A stretch of 64,000 nucleotides of DNA from Pedobacter changchengzhani (lineage in GTDB: Bacteria; Bacteroidota; Bacteroidia; Sphingobacteriales; Sphingobacteriaceae), in contig NZ_SJCY01000003.1 in the NCBI RefSeq assembly GCF_004354365.1, positions 372,001 to 436,000 of the forward strand, in the 5' to 3' direction. Position numbers and translations under genes: made by a program. Shown here piece by piece: positions 3,243 through 51,911 of this stretch. The notes beneath the pieces were generated by a model, which did no database searches, was not told the DNA's origin, and saw only the letters and a list, made by a program, of their open reading frames with translations. Within the stretch, counting starts at the first letter, position 1, and every line of letters begins with the position of its first letter.

Positions 3243-3801
3243 GTTTTTTGTGTTAATGCGAGGAAGTTAGAAAAATAATGGTTGATTATTGTAAAATGTA
3301 TGATAAAATTCAAATTCTCAACGGTGAATTATTTTTTAATCAATAAGTTCAGTACTCAAGAATTGATATTTAGCTTTTTTGAGAGAAAATTGAGATTGAA
3401 TACTACGGCGAAAGCTGATCTCGTTTAATTTGAACAATACCACCCCTTCAGGATTAAATTATTGAGCGCATTGTTTTTTATATATAATGTTAGCCCTACG
3501 GGCTTGAGAAAGGTATAGACTGAGTCAGAATTTATAATAATTCTATCCGTTTTAAAAATGGGGCGAAAAATTACTATTAAAAGGTATAATAAAATTGAAA
3601 TCCCGAAGTGATGAAATTATTAATGACCTAGATTTGGGTATATTGCTAACCCCGAAAGTGGTAACATGACGAAACATTTACTAAATAAAACAAAAAGGCC
3701 GAAGATTAAGTAATTGACTTTTATGTAATTGTACCACAATTTAAAAAAGAAAACATAAATTAATATCGTGTGTTCTTAAACAAACAACAAAAAATAATAT
3801 T
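3243..3801. other. Long intergenic region upstream of two divergent genes
   Basis: There are 559 AT-rich bases without a credible reading frame. A small perfect hairpin AGCCC-TAC-GGGCT lies at 3492-3504 with no T-run after it. The region must hold the promoters of the oxidoreductase (leftward) and the DUF4142 gene (rightward), but no clear TAnnTTTG element was found. An undetected small RNA is possible. Confidence 0.5.
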
Positions 3802-4389
3802 ATGAAAAAGTTAATTTATGGAATGGCCATTACAGCGGCCGCTTTTGCTTTTCAAGGATGTAACAGTCAGAATAAAGATGCAAAAGGTATGGCTGATAGT
3901 ATGAACCTGGCTAAAGATACAACAACAAATGTTAAAGCAACTGGTGGTATCGCGGTACCAGAGGGCGATGCAAAATTTGCAACATCAGCTGCGGTTGGTG
4001 GTATGGCAGAAGTTGCAATGGCGAAATTGGCATTAGAAAAATCTACCAATGCAAAAATTAAGGCGTTTGCTACAATGATGGTTACCGACCATGGAAAAGC
4101 AAATGAAGAGCTGATGGTAATTGCCAAAACAAAAAATATCACTTTACCAACAATGGTAGATGCTGATCACCAAAAAAAGATGGATGAATTGGCTAAAAAA
4201 TCAGGAATGGACTTTGATAAAGAATACGTTGAAACTATGGTTGATGGGCACAAATCTGCTTTAAAATTAATGCAGGATGAAGCTAAAGACGGAATGGATC
4301 CAGAACTTAAAGTGTTTGCTGGTAAAACTGTACCAGTTGTAGATGGTCATTTAAAAGCGATTACTGCAATTCACGACAGTATGAAATAA
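3802..4389 (+). CDS. DUF4142 domain lipoprotein
   Basis: This is a 195-residue exported lipoprotein. The N-terminus is a lipoprotein signal peptide ending in the lipobox FQGC (Cys20), followed by an Asn/Lys/Asp-rich linker. Residues about 60-195 form the helical, ferritin-like DUF4142 domain, with its alternating His/Glu/Asp helices (MMVTDHGKANEEL, VDGHKSALKLMQ, VVDGHLKAI). The family is common in Bacteroidota and proteobacterial periplasms and is often linked to stress conditions. Its biochemical role is not established. A strong terminator follows at 4412, so it is transcribed alone. Confidence 0.88.
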   Translation: MKKLIYGMAITAAAFAFQGCNSQNKDAKGMADSMNLAKDTTTNVKATGGIAVPEGDAKFATSAAVGGMAEVAMAKLALEKSTNAKIKAFATMMVTDHGKANEELMVIAKTKNITLPTMVDADHQKKMDELAKKSGMDFDKEYVETMVDGHKSALKLMQDEAKDGMDPELKVFAGKTVPVVDGHLKAITAIHDSMK

Positions 4390-4486: not shown

Positions 4487-5260
4487 ATGAAAATTGCAAC
4501 TTATAACGTAAATGGCGTTAACGGGCGTTTGCCAGTTTTAATTAAGTGGTTAGCAGAAACTAAGCCAGATGTAGTGTGTTTGCAAGAATTGAAAGCACCG
4601 CAGGAGAAATTTCCGGAGCAAGCTTTGATTGATGTTGGCTATAACGCAATTTGGCTTGGGCAGAAAAGTTGGAACGGTGTAGCCATTCTTGCCCGAAATT
4701 TAGAAATTAAAGAAACAAGGCGCGGGCTTCCCGGTGATGATGAGGATGTTCAGAGTAGATATATTGAAGCACAAATTAATGGGGTAATTATTGGTTGCTT
4801 GTATTTACCAAACGGCAATCCTTGCCCAGGGCCAAAATTCGATTATAAATTGAGTTGGTTTGAGCGTTTGGCTGTTCATTCTAGTCAATTACTATCTTAC
4901 AACTTACCCACAATTTTAATTGGCGATTTTAATGTGATGCCAACAGAGTTGGATGTTTACAAACCAGAACGCTGGGTAAATGATGCTTTATTTAGACCAG
5001 AAACCAGAGAAGCTTTTGGTAAACTAATTTCTTTAGGATGGATTGATGCCATTAGACAATTATATCCAACCGAAAAGATTTATACTTTCTACGATTATTT
5101 TAGAAATGCGTATGGCAGAGATGCAGGTTTAAGAATAGACCACTTCTTGCTAAGCCCCGATTTAAAAAGCAAACTTTTAGCGGCCGGTACAGATAGACAT
5201 GTTAGAGGTTGGGAAAAAACAAGCGACCATGTTCCGGTTTGGATAGAATTGGAGGAGTAA
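4487..5260 (+). CDS. xth: Exodeoxyribonuclease III (AP endonuclease family)
   Basis: The 257-residue protein belongs to the endonuclease/exonuclease/phosphatase family. It shows MKIATYNVNGVNGRL at the N-terminus, the metal-binding Glu in LQELKAP, the catalytic GDFNVMP, and the C-terminal SDHVPVW with the active-site Asp-His. It acts in base-excision repair, cutting abasic sites and trimming 3' ends. A longer frame opens at 4397, but that extension would run through the terminator at 4412-4440, and the family begins at MKIATYN. The ATG at 4487 is therefore the start. It is a stand-alone gene. Confidence 0.93.
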   Translation: MKIATYNVNGVNGRLPVLIKWLAETKPDVVCLQELKAPQEKFPEQALIDVGYNAIWLGQKSWNGVAILARNLEIKETRRGLPGDDEDVQSRYIEAQINGVIIGCLYLPNGNPCPGPKFDYKLSWFERLAVHSSQLLSYNLPTILIGDFNVMPTELDVYKPERWVNDALFRPETREAFGKLISLGWIDAIRQLYPTEKIYTFYDYFRNAYGRDAGLRIDHFLLSPDLKSKLLAAGTDRHVRGWEKTSDHVPVWIELEE

Positions 5261-47682: not shown

Positions 47683-49782
47683 TTAAAACAACTGCGAAGT
47701 ACCCAAATAACTGTTCACGTGTCGTAATAATTTATCGCCAATTTCTCGTGCATTGCCAACGCCAATCCCTTTAAGTGCGGCCAATTGATCTATTGTTTTA
47801 GGTAATTTACTGGCAATTTGAACAATGGTTTGCTCAGAGATGATGCTGTGTGGAGGTACGTTTTGCGCTTTGGCATAGCTTTCTCGCCAATTTAACAGGG
47901 TATTGTAAAGCTGAATATTTTCTATCTCTTTAGGTTCTTCTTTTGGTTTAATCGCCTTTCTATTCTGTAAAATCACGAATTTGTTGCTCGCAGTATAGTT
48001 TGTATTAGCGTAATTTGATGGTGAAAATTGAGCCCAATTAAGCTTTAATAAGTTTATTTTGATTTCTAATTCGCTCAAGAAATTATTAATCACAGTCAGC
48101 ATTTTTTCTGCTTTTTCATCCATGTAAATGTTGACGCCGGCCATTTTTTCCATTTCCGAGATGACAAAATCAACCTTCGGTATAAAATAGGAAACCGCTT
48201 TTTCTAAACGGATAATGAATGTTTTTGCGTTAGTAAATTTTTCGGTTTTTGGTTGATTGGATAACTCTTTCGTATTGAATAGTATTGCGATTTTAAAAAT
48301 TTCTTGCTTTAAGGGCACGTTAATTTTATCTACTAATTCTTTAAAACTAATATTCTCTCGTTGGTTATTGAAATTATTTTCCTCCAAAAATTTAAACAGC
48401 TTTTCTATGGATGTAAAATCAAAAAGCGCTTCAATTAACGACCATTCGTAAGCTATTTTATAGGTGTTTAAACTTTGTAAAGTGGGTGTATTTGCAATTG
48501 CATTGTTTGTGAATTGAATTATCCTTGGGTCGGTAATAATGTTTTCTTGTTTTACTGGCGATTTAAGCACCAAGCCTTCCAAACTTCGGCACCTGCTCAA
48601 AGCAACGTATGCTTGCCCATGCGTAAACGATGCGCTTACATCAACAATGGCCTTATCAAAAGTTAAACCTTGACTTTTATGAACGGTAATTGCCCAAGCC
48701 AACTTAAAAGGAAATTGAAAGAAAGAACCTGTATTTGTCTCGCGGATTTTATTATCGTCTTGATTTAGGTTGTATTTTATATTTTGCCACTCTTCTCTAC
48801 TTACCGCTATTTCTCCAGAACCATCAATAAAAGAAACACTTATTGTATCCTCCTGTATGGCTGTAATTTTGCCAGCTTTACCATTATAATATTGTTTCTT
48901 TCCCGATGAATCATTTTTAATGAACATTACTTGAGCGCCCAGTTTTATTTGCAGTAACTCATCTGTTGGGTACGCATCTTTAGGGAAATCGCCAACAATA
49001 ACAGCCTGGAAAATTTTTACTTCATCAGTTAAATTATTTAAGCAATCGCTGTTAATCTGAGTTACGAGTTGATTGTGCGTGGTTAAAGTGATATATTCAT
49101 CTTTCCAAACTTCATCCAAAACGTCGTCATGTCGCTCATTTAATTTATCTAAAAGCAATGTTGAGATGTTGTTCTCTCTAATTCCATTCAATATCTCAAG
49201 AAAAAGTGGGTCCGATTGGCGATAAACTTTCTCTAATAAAAATGTAGTTAAAGTGGTTTTTTTTAATACTTGGCTGTCGAAGAAGTACGGGCTTGCATAA
49301 TATTTCTTCAATACGTGCCATGCATCATTAGCTACTGGAGAGAGTTGGTATAAGTCGCCAATCATAAGCACTTGTACGCCACCAAATGCAGTTTTTATGC
49401 CTCTTACTTTTCGCAATGTGAAATCGATAAAGTCGATTAAATCAGCCCTCACCATACTCACTTCATCAATAATGAGTAATTCTAAACACCTCAGTAATTT
49501 GCTTTTTTCCTCGGAGAATTTGATAATTTTTTCGTTACTTTCTAACTCAGTTGTTGGCGGAATTAAAGGCCCGAATGGAATTTGAAAGAATGAATGTAAA
49601 GTTACACCGCCTGCATTTATTGCCGCTACGGCCGTTGGCGCTACTACTGCAAAATTCTTTTTTGTGGTATCTCTTATTTGTCTAAGTAAAGTTGTTTTAC
49701 CAGTTCCTGCCTTGCCTGTTAAAAATATAGGCTGATTGGTAAGTGATAAAAAATCGAGAATTAGCTGGTTATCAGTAGACAA
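47683..49782 (-). CDS. Pif1-like helicase with HRDC-type C-terminus
   Basis: The 699-residue helicase has Walker A GKAGTGKT (23-30), the Pif1-type APTAVAAINAGGVTLHSFF, Walker B LLIIDEVSMVRADL, VLMIGDLYQLSPV, the motif V/VI segment AWAITVHKSQGLTFDKAIVDV, and YVALSRCRSLEGL. A C-terminal HRDC-like domain (SKLPKTIDQLAALKGIGVGNAREIGDKLL) covers the last 60 residues. Pif1-family enzymes unwind DNA 5' to 3' and resolve hairpins and G-quadruplexes. A palindrome array begins about 100 bp upstream of its start codon. Confidence 0.9.
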   Translation of the reverse strand: MSTDNQLILDFLSLTNQPIFLTGKAGTGKTTLLRQIRDTTKKNFAVVAPTAVAAINAGGVTLHSFFQIPFGPLIPPTTELESNEKIIKFSEEKSKLLRCLELLIIDEVSMVRADLIDFIDFTLRKVRGIKTAFGGVQVLMIGDLYQLSPVANDAWHVLKKYYASPYFFDSQVLKKTTLTTFLLEKVYRQSDPLFLEILNGIRENNISTLLLDKLNERHDDVLDEVWKDEYITLTTHNQLVTQINSDCLNNLTDEVKIFQAVIVGDFPKDAYPTDELLQIKLGAQVMFIKNDSSGKKQYYNGKAGKITAIQEDTISVSFIDGSGEIAVSREEWQNIKYNLNQDDNKIRETNTGSFFQFPFKLAWAITVHKSQGLTFDKAIVDVSASFTHGQAYVALSRCRSLEGLVLKSPVKQENIITDPRIIQFTNNAIANTPTLQSLNTYKIAYEWSLIEALFDFTSIEKLFKFLEENNFNNQRENISFKELVDKINVPLKQEIFKIAILFNTKELSNQPKTEKFTNAKTFIIRLEKAVSYFIPKVDFVISEMEKMAGVNIYMDEKAEKMLTVINNFLSELEIKINLLKLNWAQFSPSNYANTNYTASNKFVILQNRKAIKPKEEPKEIENIQLYNTLLNWRESYAKAQNVPPHSIISEQTIVQIASKLPKTIDQLAALKGIGVGNAREIGDKLLRHVNSYLGTSQLF

Positions 49783-49879
49783 ATTAGATAAAGTTTAAAT
49801 TTTGCTAAAAATACAACCATTTTTTATTTTTTTACTAAAAATATTGGTATAAATTTGCGAGTAGTTATAAATGTTTATA

Positions 49880-51130
49880 ACCACAGATAAAAAGGATGAA
49901 CACAGATTTCCACGGAATTTTGAATAGCGTTAAGTTTTTTTTGACGTGTGTTCCGAGCTTCCGTGGCTAATTTAGTGCCATAGTTTTTTTGCCACGGAAA
50001 CACAGATTTCCACGGAATATGATTGGTTAAGTTTTTTTTCCGTGTGTTCCGAGCTTCCGTGGCTGATTTAGTACCATAGTTTTTTTGCCACGGAAACACA
50101 GATTTTCACGGAATATGATTGATTAAGTTTTTTTTCGTGTGTTCGGAGTTTCCGTGGCTGATGTAGTGCAACAGTTATTTTGCCACGGAAACACAGATTT
50201 CCAAGGAATTTTGAATAGCGTTAAGTTTTTTTTCCATGTGTTCCGAGTTTCCGTGGCTGATTTAGTGCAACAATTTTTTTGCCACGGAAACACAGATTTT
50301 TACGGAATTTGAATAGCGTTAAGTTTTTTTTTCCGTGTGTTCAGAGCTTCCGTGGCTAATTTAGTGCCATAGTTTTTTTGCCGCGGAAACGCAGATTTCC
50401 ACGGAATTTGAATAGCGTTAAGTTTTTTTCCGTGTGTTCCGAGCTTCCGTGGCTAATTTAGTGTTATAGTTTTTTTGCCACGGAAACACAGATTTCCACG
50501 GAATATGATTGATTAAGTTTTTTTTTCCGTGTGTTCCGAGTTTCCGTGGCTAATTTAGTGCAACAATTTTTTTGCCACGGAAACACAGATTTCCAAGGAA
50601 TTTTGAATAGCGTTAAGTTTTTTTTCCGTGTGTTCCGAGTTTCCGTGGCTAATTTAGTGCCATAGTTTTTTTTGCCACGGAAACACAGATTTCCATGGAA
50701 TTTTGAATAACGTTAAGTTTTTTTTACGTGTGTTCCGAGTTTCCGTGGCTAATTTAAGTGCCATGGTTTTTTTGCCACGGAAACACAGATTTCCACGGAA
50801 TATGAATAGCGTTAAGTTTTTTTTCCGTGTGTTCCGAGTTTCCGTGGCTAATTTAGTGCCATAGTTTTTTGCCACGGAAACATAGATTTCCACGGGATTT
50901 AAATTGGGTTAATTTTTTTTTCCGTGTGTTCCGAGCTTCCGTGGCTAATTTAGTGCGATAGTTTTTTTGCCACGGAAACACAGATTTTCACGGAATTTGA
51001 ATAGCGTTAATTTTTTTTTCCGTGTGTTCCGAGTTTCCGTGGCTGATGTAGTGCCATAGTTTTTTTGCCACGGAAACACAGATTTCCACGGAATTTTGAA
51101 TAGCGTTAAGTTTTTTTCCGTGTGTTCCGA
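49880..51130. repeat. Array of about 12 palindromic units of 95-100 bp
   Basis: Units begin with GCCACGGAA at 49991, 50087, 50182, 50281, 50380 (GCCGCGG variant), 50477, 50574, 50674, 50774, 50871, 50969 and 51067. A degenerate leading unit starts at 49880, and the last is cut at 51130. Each unit holds arms GCCACGGAA and TTCCGTGGC, a T-run of 7-9 between the halves, and a spacer (TAATTTAGTGCCATAG) with another T-run. The period is not a multiple of three and varies, so it does not encode protein repeats. Confidence 0.95.
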
Positions 51131-51172
51131 GGGTAAAAATTTGAATGTTAATGAGAAGAATGAAATAAATTG

Positions 51173-51829
51173 ATGAAGAACGATAATGAACCAATTTCTG
51201 AAATCATAGTAACACAGTCGCTACCTAGTGTGCCCGAATACTACCGGCGAGAAACGCCCTGGCATAGGGACTGGAAACTTGCATTTCCAAAACATTACAG
51301 AGAAATCAGTTTTTTAGATGAAACTTTAAATGAAATTCATCGAGCTGATGTTTGTACGCCGTGCAAAACTATTATTGAGTTTCAAAACTCGCCAATCACT
51401 TTAACAGAACTTAAAAGTAGGGAAGCGTATTATAAAAACCTCATTTGGGTACTGAATGGTAAAAAGTTTAAAGGCTTTCGAGTATTAAAACACTTGCCAG
51501 ATGTTGACGACCCTAAATTGGCTGATTACGAATTTTGCCATTCTGATCACTTATCAATGGTGCGAAAAAGCGATATAATAAAGGGAGTTTTAAAACCAAA
51601 AATTTTAAACTTTTATCATCCTGAAATTAAGGCTATCCCATTAACATCTTATTATTATTCTTTCTGTTGGAAACAACCTCACACTGTTTGGTATGAAGCA
51701 AAAGCGCCCATAATTGTCGATTTAGGTGGCCATTTTCTGTATGAGCTTCGCCAGCGTAAGCAAATTTCTGGTAATTATCCATACCTTAAAATTATTAGTA
51801 GAAAAGCATTTATTGATCAATATCTATAA
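51173..51829 (+). CDS. CoiA-like nuclease (competence protein family)
   Basis: The 218-residue protein fits the PD-(D/E)XK nuclease core of CoiA. It has ETPWHRDWK at the start, HRADV with Asp59, the E-x-Q motif IEFQNS (Glu69, Gln71), and then SREAYYKNLIWVLN. CoiA proteins act in DNA uptake and recombination in competent bacteria. This single-domain form is shorter than Bacillus CoiA. The ATG at 51173 is used, since an in-frame TGA lies 12 bp upstream. The gene lies between the palindrome array and an isolated repeat end, as if the three form one inserted segment. Confidence 0.75.
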   Translation: MKNDNEPISEIIVTQSLPSVPEYYRRETPWHRDWKLAFPKHYREISFLDETLNEIHRADVCTPCKTIIEFQNSPITLTELKSREAYYKNLIWVLNGKKFKGFRVLKHLPDVDDPKLADYEFCHSDHLSMVRKSDIIKGVLKPKILNFYHPEIKAIPLTSYYYSFCWKQPHTVWYEAKAPIIVDLGGHFLYELRQRKQISGNYPYLKIISRKAFIDQYL

Positions 51830-51890
51830 CCTGTAATTATCAATTTTCGGTAAAAAATATACCAATATGGTTGTTAAAAAATCTTAAATG

Positions 51891-51911
51891 TTTCCACGGA
51901 TTATCTGTGGT
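51891..51911. repeat. Isolated repeat end matching the start of the array
   Basis: TTTCCACGGA (51891-51900) repeats 49907-49916 in direct orientation. TTATCTGTGGT (51901-51911) is the exact inverted copy of ACCACAGATAA at 49880-49890. Together they mark the right end of a 2.0-kb segment. Confidence 0.8.

Follow-up and report, generated by a model that had tools for sequence, protein, structure and literature searches.

On both sides of a tandem array and a gene for a CoiA-like nuclease in a Pedobacter genome lies the same 11-bp sequence in inverted orientation, and a first-pass annotation had read the enclosed 2.0 kb as an expanded mobile repeat carrying a gene. Does this segment move as a unit, or did a repeat settle and grow beside a gene that was already there? 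The window analysed here is the whole stretch of 64,000 nucleotides (G000:C23:372001-436000) from this genome of 3.9 Mb. In what follows G stands for a genome, G000 being the window's own, C for a contig of that genome and L for an extracted locus. The parts of the locus are:

47683..49782, minus strand: PIF1-like helicase with HRDC domain (PIF1 E 4.7e-27, HRDC 1.7e-14)
49804..49857, plus strand: AT-rich box, present in the helicase-coiA gap of two relatives too (sequence comparison by eye)
49880..49907, plus strand: 28-nt left end of the array, identical to a 5' inverted end beside a GxxExxY gene (28/28 to L296)
49880..49990, plus strand: first unit, founder-like, consisting of left end and palindromic body (unit split; DNA fold)
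49991..51066, plus strand: the 11 full units of the tandem array, 95-100 nt each and hairpin-forming (unit split, TRF, folding)
51067..51134, plus strand: final partial unit of 68 nt (unit split)
51170..51829, plus strand: CoiA-like nuclease gene, 219 aa, an old resident (Pfam; conservation in the genus)
51894..51910, no strand: separate mini-palindrome CCACGGATTATCTGTGG, which holds most of the right 11-mer (palindrome search, fold)

The gap between helicase and coiA measures 1.39 kb and is mostly tandem array. The AT-rich box ends at its 3' side in TAAATTTG, a word that resembles the -7 word TAnnTTTG of Bacteroidota. Part of this promoter-like box (49828-49856) and part of the gap between coiA and the right 11-mer (51853-51881) form an inverted pair of 29 nt with 79% complementarity.

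The annotated array of about 12 units with a CoiA-like gene was confirmed: TRF reported a period of 99 with 12.6 copies at 49899-51131 (89% matches, score 1914), and Pfam recognised CoiA_nuc. Cut at GCC[AG]CGGAAAC, it falls into a first unit of 111 nt (the 11-mer included), 11 full ones of 95-100 nt and a partial one of 68 nt, and the array of about 12 copies of a ~97-bp hairpin unit between helicase and CoiA-like gene thus extends over 49880-51134. Compared in pairs, the full units are on average 88.6% identical, adjacent and far-apart ones being about equally alike. Because a period of 293 nt scored slightly above that of 99 nt in TRF, the array may have grown partly by blocks. Folded as single-stranded DNA, one unit formed a hairpin with a z of -4.9, which none of 200 shuffled sequences equalled, and the first unit reached -2.5 with 5/200 shuffles as good. 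The hairpin stem of the 95-100 nt unit ends in GCC[AG]CGGAA and TTCCGTGGC.

The core GCCACGGAANCACAGA has 31 exact copies on several contigs of the own genome, mostly inside arrays. The coding content of the array comprises just three short minus-strand ORFs of 68-79 aa, judged by the ORF list alone, and no transposase was seen, so that the repeat shows the dispersed copies and the lack of an internal transposase expected of a MITE. On the unit split no tail was recognised 3' of the array, no right end matching the GxxExxY-type left end of the first unit was identified outside the array, and a target-site duplication at the window array was not identifiable. The six Rfam matches with E up to 1 scored far under the gathering cut-offs without exception.

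The first 28 nt of the array are identical to the sequence 5' of a GxxExxY gene in another Pedobacter (G019, L296) and differ by one mismatch from the 5' end of a GxxExxY gene in the own genome at C23:445297. With up to four mismatches this type of left end was present at 10/73 GxxExxY loci, while it occurred at 0/51 coiA, 1/29 helicase and 0/30 dapA loci. Seven of the ten represent one syntenic site, including the own gene at C23:445470 and L327. In L327 the left-end type lies inside a 95-bp array of tandem repeats immediately upstream of the GxxExxY gene, the closest parallel to the window.

The own genome holds four GxxExxY genes, all matching TIGR04256, and those at C3:114058, C12:3006 and C2:20554 have 5' tandem arrays of other units. 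The gene at C12:3006 has a matching inverted end at its 3' side as well. The fourth (L238, G000:C23:445297-445814) carries ACCACAGATAAAATGGATGAACACAGAT at its 5' side and a short inverted match with a score of 25 at its 3' side; this gene is a candidate source of a trans-acting nuclease. A 67-bp array lies directly 5' of the GxxExxY gene of L236/L241 (G000:C3:113475-114402), where an open frame just before the contig end presumably resembles the start of an IS256-type transposase, as seen by eye. The array upstream of the GxxExxY gene at C2:20554 (L235) is a 97-bp one with 12.7 copies, and its units, of ATTAAGG type, are quite different.

Whether GxxExxY genes are generally bracketed by inverted repeats was assayed by aligning 400 bp upstream to the reverse complement of 400 bp downstream; four score thresholds were computed, and results for 26 and 34 are quoted. 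The Pedobacter set of 73 loci comprised the four own ones, 29 others and the next 40 list places in order, and thus is a part of all matches. The phylum set consisted of the best-scoring 29 loci, none from the window's genus. L236 and L307 of the Pedobacter set and L367 of the phylum draw, all contig edges, were left out. Controls were 79 coiA and helicase loci, 50 of the 51 coiA loci being used after one shorter than 3300 nt was dropped. At a score of at least 26 an inverted pair was detected at 43/71 Pedobacter GxxExxY loci, compared with 2/79 controls and 293/2000 mismatched pairs; at a score of at least 34 the counts were 21/71 and 0/79. In the phylum draw 22/28 GxxExxY loci reached 26, compared with 1/28 far-window pairs and 171/2000 mismatched pairs. 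Many GxxExxY loci are syntenic between species and the loci are not independent. Grouping by shared flanks reduced 71 loci to 17 sites and 28 loci to 26 sites; at least half of the loci reached 26 at 12/17 and 21/26 sites, respectively. A clear inverted pair was absent at 28/71 Pedobacter loci, including most of two syntenic sites of 12 and 7 loci.

The end words varied by site and included CCACAGAT, CACAAAG, CGCAGAT, CGCAAAG, CACAGAG and CATATAAG. Because they differ from site to site, a single repeat shared by all loci does not explain why the two ends of a given locus match. For the same reason a mere count of CCAC[AG]GA words was almost without enrichment: two or more within 500 bp were found upstream of 2/32 and downstream of 3/32 GxxExxY genes, with 0/50 and 1/50 for coiA and 1/29 and 0/29 for helicase. 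This count was replaced by the inverted-pair test. The bracketed stretch had a median length of 524.5 bp (54 loci with a score of at least 28). Over these 54 bracketing repeats there was no general signal of target-site duplication, the longest shared flank word averaging 3.8 compared with 3.5 for mismatched flanks; L388 alone showed a 10-nt shared word at the element ends.

By genome, the repeat core co-occurred with GxxExxY in 52/52 compared with 0/60 cases. On a coiA tree of 52 genomes this corresponds to three changes per trait and two independent pairs on supported branches. Because the co-occurrence is thus clade-bound and confounded by phylogeny, we gave it no weight. Presence and absence at one place were seen in the gap between ligA and dapA, where 7 of the best 30 dapA loci (142 genomes had a match; L361 reads N before the gene) contain a GxxExxY gene. 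The gene was present in three and absent from eight of the 11 genomes whose DapA is at least 90% identical to the query. Depending on the species this gap (L332-L361) holds a GxxExxY element, other palindromes (by eye) or little else, and is perhaps a hot spot. The family as a whole was found in 73/148 genomes drawn from the phylum, i.e. in about half.

The structure model of the GxxExxY protein had a pLDDT of 95.7. Its closest match was SSO0001 (4ic1; Foldseek E 1.0e-3; Z 10.7, rmsd 3.0, 96 aligned), which we take to be a Cas4 protein. The restriction enzyme BpuSI (3s1s; Z 8.5, rmsd 2.1, 87 aligned), Holliday-junction resolvases (1gef; Z 7.9, rmsd 3.0, 83 aligned) and a chain titled Cas4 (4r5q; Z 7.1, rmsd 3.0, 101 aligned) matched as well. 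These matches to several types of nuclease make the fold PD-(D/E)XK-like without singling out one nearest enzyme. Across 17 aligned sequences D63, E73, K75, Q87 and Y91 do not vary. As far as the model goes, a structure-cutting nuclease and hairpin-forming ends would suit each other.

Could the array instead be a minisatellite that arose locally from a common hairpin of intergenic regions, without a mobilising protein, its likeness to GxxExxY ends being due to shared descent of intergenic repeats alone? TRF found arrays near other genes too, at 2/29 helicase, 2/30 dapA and 8/123 coiA loci, and arrays in the genus Pedobacter are not rare. The lack of a general target-site duplication and the clade-bound co-occurrence are likewise in line with this explanation. 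Yet the left-end type is found at 10/73 GxxExxY loci compared with 1/110 others, and the two ends of the same gene match far more often than ends across loci (43/71 versus 293/2000 in Pedobacter, 22/28 versus 171/2000 in the phylum draw). We consider a purely local origin rather unlikely. Arrays at the GxxExxY loci themselves were counted at 13/73 in Pedobacter compared with 4/59 for helicase and dapA together (p 0.07), an excess that is suggestive only, and TRF found 0/29 in the phylum draw. Draft assemblies may undercount arrays because contigs end at or near them in L005, L241, L242, L283 and L284.

Another explanation is a selected regulatory array: hairpins in the transcribed leader of coiA would adjust how strongly the nuclease is expressed, and the array would be maintained for this role. 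It would account for the position of the array between the shared promoter-like box and coiA. Furthermore, tandem arrays lie 5' of coiA in five other Pedobacter genomes (4/51 and 4/72 loci by TRF; by position L015/L147 from P. terrae, L130/L141 from P. suwonensis, L117/L139, L034 and L179). The rate, on the other hand, did not exceed that of control genes (coiA 8/123 versus helicase plus dapA 4/59, p 1.0), and because of this equality we do not regard coiA as special among array neighbours. In addition, the units of the other genomes differ from those of the window, and in L147, L139, L141 and L034 the array is located upstream of a box-like stretch, as judged by eye. A selected regulatory role appears improbable. 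In L179 an 81-bp array 5' of coiA (4617-4936) has a unit that contains a promoter-box-like stretch (CACTAAAAT.ATTAGT), a duplicated regulatory region. Counts of CCACGGA-type words had suggested that there were no arrays near the coiA genes of relatives; this approach was too narrow and was discarded because TRF found arrays of other units.

The idea that the 2.0 kb are a mobile element with 11-bp inverted ends carrying both the array and the CoiA-like gene derives from the inverted 11-mers on both sides. Indeed, ACCACAGATAA at 49880-49890, its inverted copy TTATCTGTGGT at 51901-51911 and the direct copies of TTTCCACGGA at 49907 and 51891 were all verified, and the GxxExxY gene at C12:3006, with its 5' array and 3' inverted end, provides a similar arrangement in the own genome. 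But the right 11-mer makes up one half of a 17-bp near-palindrome of its own, CCACGGAT-T-ATCTGTGG, located at 51894-51910, so the two copies are not partners and do not bound the segment. This palindrome folds into a weak hairpin (z -2.1, 11/200 shuffles as good), lies 3' of coiA and is the sole such place in the window at up to three mismatches; it is a small repeat of its own. Joining the direct copies does leave a short hairpin as proposed, but that hairpin is already present at the right copy. In the genome search that the first-pass annotation had suggested, the 11-mer occurred ten times, five per strand, compared with one occurrence of the reversed control pattern. Eight of the ten contexts were viewed (C12:299545 and C23:54237 are left out of this count); seven looked intergenic or like repeat ends and one looked coding. 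Thus the 11-mer is a repeat end of frequent occurrence in this genome and does not mark out the segment. No GxxExxY gene was found between the two 11-mers in the ORF list or the genome matches.

The second argument against joint transfer is the age of coiA at this place. The gene at 51170 contains a CoiA domain (PF06054) above the Pfam cut-off (22.9 bits versus 20.3, E 1.1e-4), restricted to residues 52-101, and D60, E70 and Q72 are invariant among 19 aligned sequences. It is present in one copy in the own genome, in 32/36 genomes of the same genus (first draw, own included) and, at E 1e-90, in 87/145 genomes. Its divergent neighbour, the PIF1-like helicase, is conserved, and the two genes stand head-to-head in L040, L120, L136 and L140. 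Two related species keep this pair without an array, the very observation named beforehand as speaking against a gene-carrying repeat: L040/L115 (G072), L120 (G113), L136 (P. nototheniae) and L140 (P. punctiformis), where L140 probably equals L040 and L136 probably equals L120 by sequence, i.e. both species were seen twice. In L040, where coiA starts at 3843 and the match to the helicase sets in at 3582 (residue 4), the gap is about 250 bp. The AT-rich box is common to the window and both array-free species, and in the window the array follows the box (by eye). We concluded that coiA is an old resident and not cargo, and that the array entered, or grew in, a pre-existing intergenic region. Of the proposed expanded mobile repeat carrying a gene, the expanded repeat of mobile type stands and the gene cargo falls. 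Judged from the sequences, the 2 kb do not form a mobile element with a gene as cargo, and we give the explanation that they do very little chance.

NCBIfam had no match for the gene at 51170 up to E 1 and hence none to GxxExxY (TIGR04256), and PHROGs matched neither CoiA nor one GxxExxY protein. The CoiA structure model had no significant PDB match in Foldseek; in a second comparison the best match, Bax1 with XPB (6p4w; Z 6.2, rmsd 3.4, 98 aligned), was too weak and was rejected. A more distant coiA copy, 51-52% identical over the part compared, stands beside the helicase in L042, L043 and L060. In L042 and L043 helicase and distant coiA are separated by a small gene, and the N-terminal part of the copy seemingly contains cysteines (by eye).

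A CRISPR-like array with an associated nuclease, which regular direct repeats adjoining a nuclease gene might recall, can be virtually dismissed because unique spacers are absent and the whole ~97-nt unit is repeated with 88.6% mean identity.

The probable explanation in our view is that two separate repeat copies flank a resident gene and that the array is a MITE-like derivative of a GxxExxY element that came to lie beside coiA and expanded in tandem. In favour of this explanation we counted the array-free gaps, the end identical to L296, the array of L327, the bracketing by inverted repeats and the presence or absence of the gene between ligA and dapA, as well as the unit hairpin, the resemblance to 4ic1 and the own-genome arrays of other units. 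Against it we counted the lack of a general target-site duplication, the clade-bound co-occurrence, the 28/71 loci without a pair and the fairly frequent end matches across loci. In mechanistic terms a short palindromic derivative would have entered the gap downstream of the promoter-like box common to the relatives, with a GxxExxY nuclease probably acting on it in trans; the genome has four such genes, one with a nearly identical end. The nuclease would act in trans on ACCACAGAT-type ends or on hairpins: a Cas4/Hjc-like enzyme may cleave the hairpin once it is extruded, and the hairpin would be copied during the ensuing repair. Growth to about 12 units could have occurred by slippage or unequal recombination between adjacent copies. 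In its present position the array would be part of the coiA 5' leader, with a possible effect on coiA expression. Mobilisation of the repeat by GxxExxY is what we infer from comparing sequences.

The array itself is ordinary, a MITE-like repeat grown to a minisatellite. Less ordinary is an orphan nuclease family that lies between matched inverted repeats at most sites tested. It is quite possible, if still short of probable, that GxxExxY is the enzyme of phylum-wide minimal mobile elements of ~0.5 kb, which would consist of one Cas4/Hjc-like PD-(D/E)XK gene and inverted short-word ends (CCACAGAT, CACAAAG, CGCAGAT, CGCAAAG, CACAGAG), would lack a transposase and would generate families of palindromic repeats as well as end-derived tandem hairpin arrays. 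If GxxExxY acts on such ends, the origin of a class of bacterial intergenic palindromes would be explained, and mobility would be brought about by a nuclease without a known transposase.

A link of GxxExxY to inverted repeats was not found among the PMC papers listed by the searches, nor was a description of the inverted-repeat nuclease element to which the array end points. In a MITE review (PMC10969869) a term search shows nuclease, Bacteroid- and GxxExxY to be absent. Two of the papers searched mention GxxExxY, and one of them describes a GxxExxY-domain match beside a reverse transcriptase where another tool saw cas4 (PMC8934634). The BrickBuilt elements of Porphyromonas gingivalis are tandem arrays inside a MITE (PMC4596501). 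They share with the window array the occurrence in Bacteroidota, the intergenic position in a MITE-like element, the variable copy number and the lack of a transposase remnant inside; of their inverted ends the window array has a counterpart at the left. However, they have a 23-nt unit with leader and tail, in contrast to ~97-nt hairpin units here, and ends most like those of IS elements, whereas the left end of the window array matches GxxExxY nuclease genes. REPs are palindromes of 20-40 bp with a GTAG/CGTC tag at one end, and the array unit of 95-100 nt exceeds that size. REPtrons and TIRtrons are RAYT or TIRYT tyrosine-transposase genes flanked by REPs or TIRs (PMC3733652). As with GxxExxY, one small enzyme gene is bracketed by repeats that also occur alone; yet theirs is an HUH tyrosine transposase with GTAG-tagged REPs, while GxxExxY is a PD-(D/E)XK nuclease with CCACAGAT-type end words. 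With MITEs the window repeat shares that it is short, palindromic, present in several copies and free of a visible transposase, and it differs in that no general target-site duplication was found and in its presumed partner, a nuclease instead of a transposase. Finally, the gene beside the window array is CoiA-like and not a member of the GxxExxY family (TIGR04256; Pfam PF13366, PDDEXK_3), but the 5' end of some members of that family is the left end of the array.
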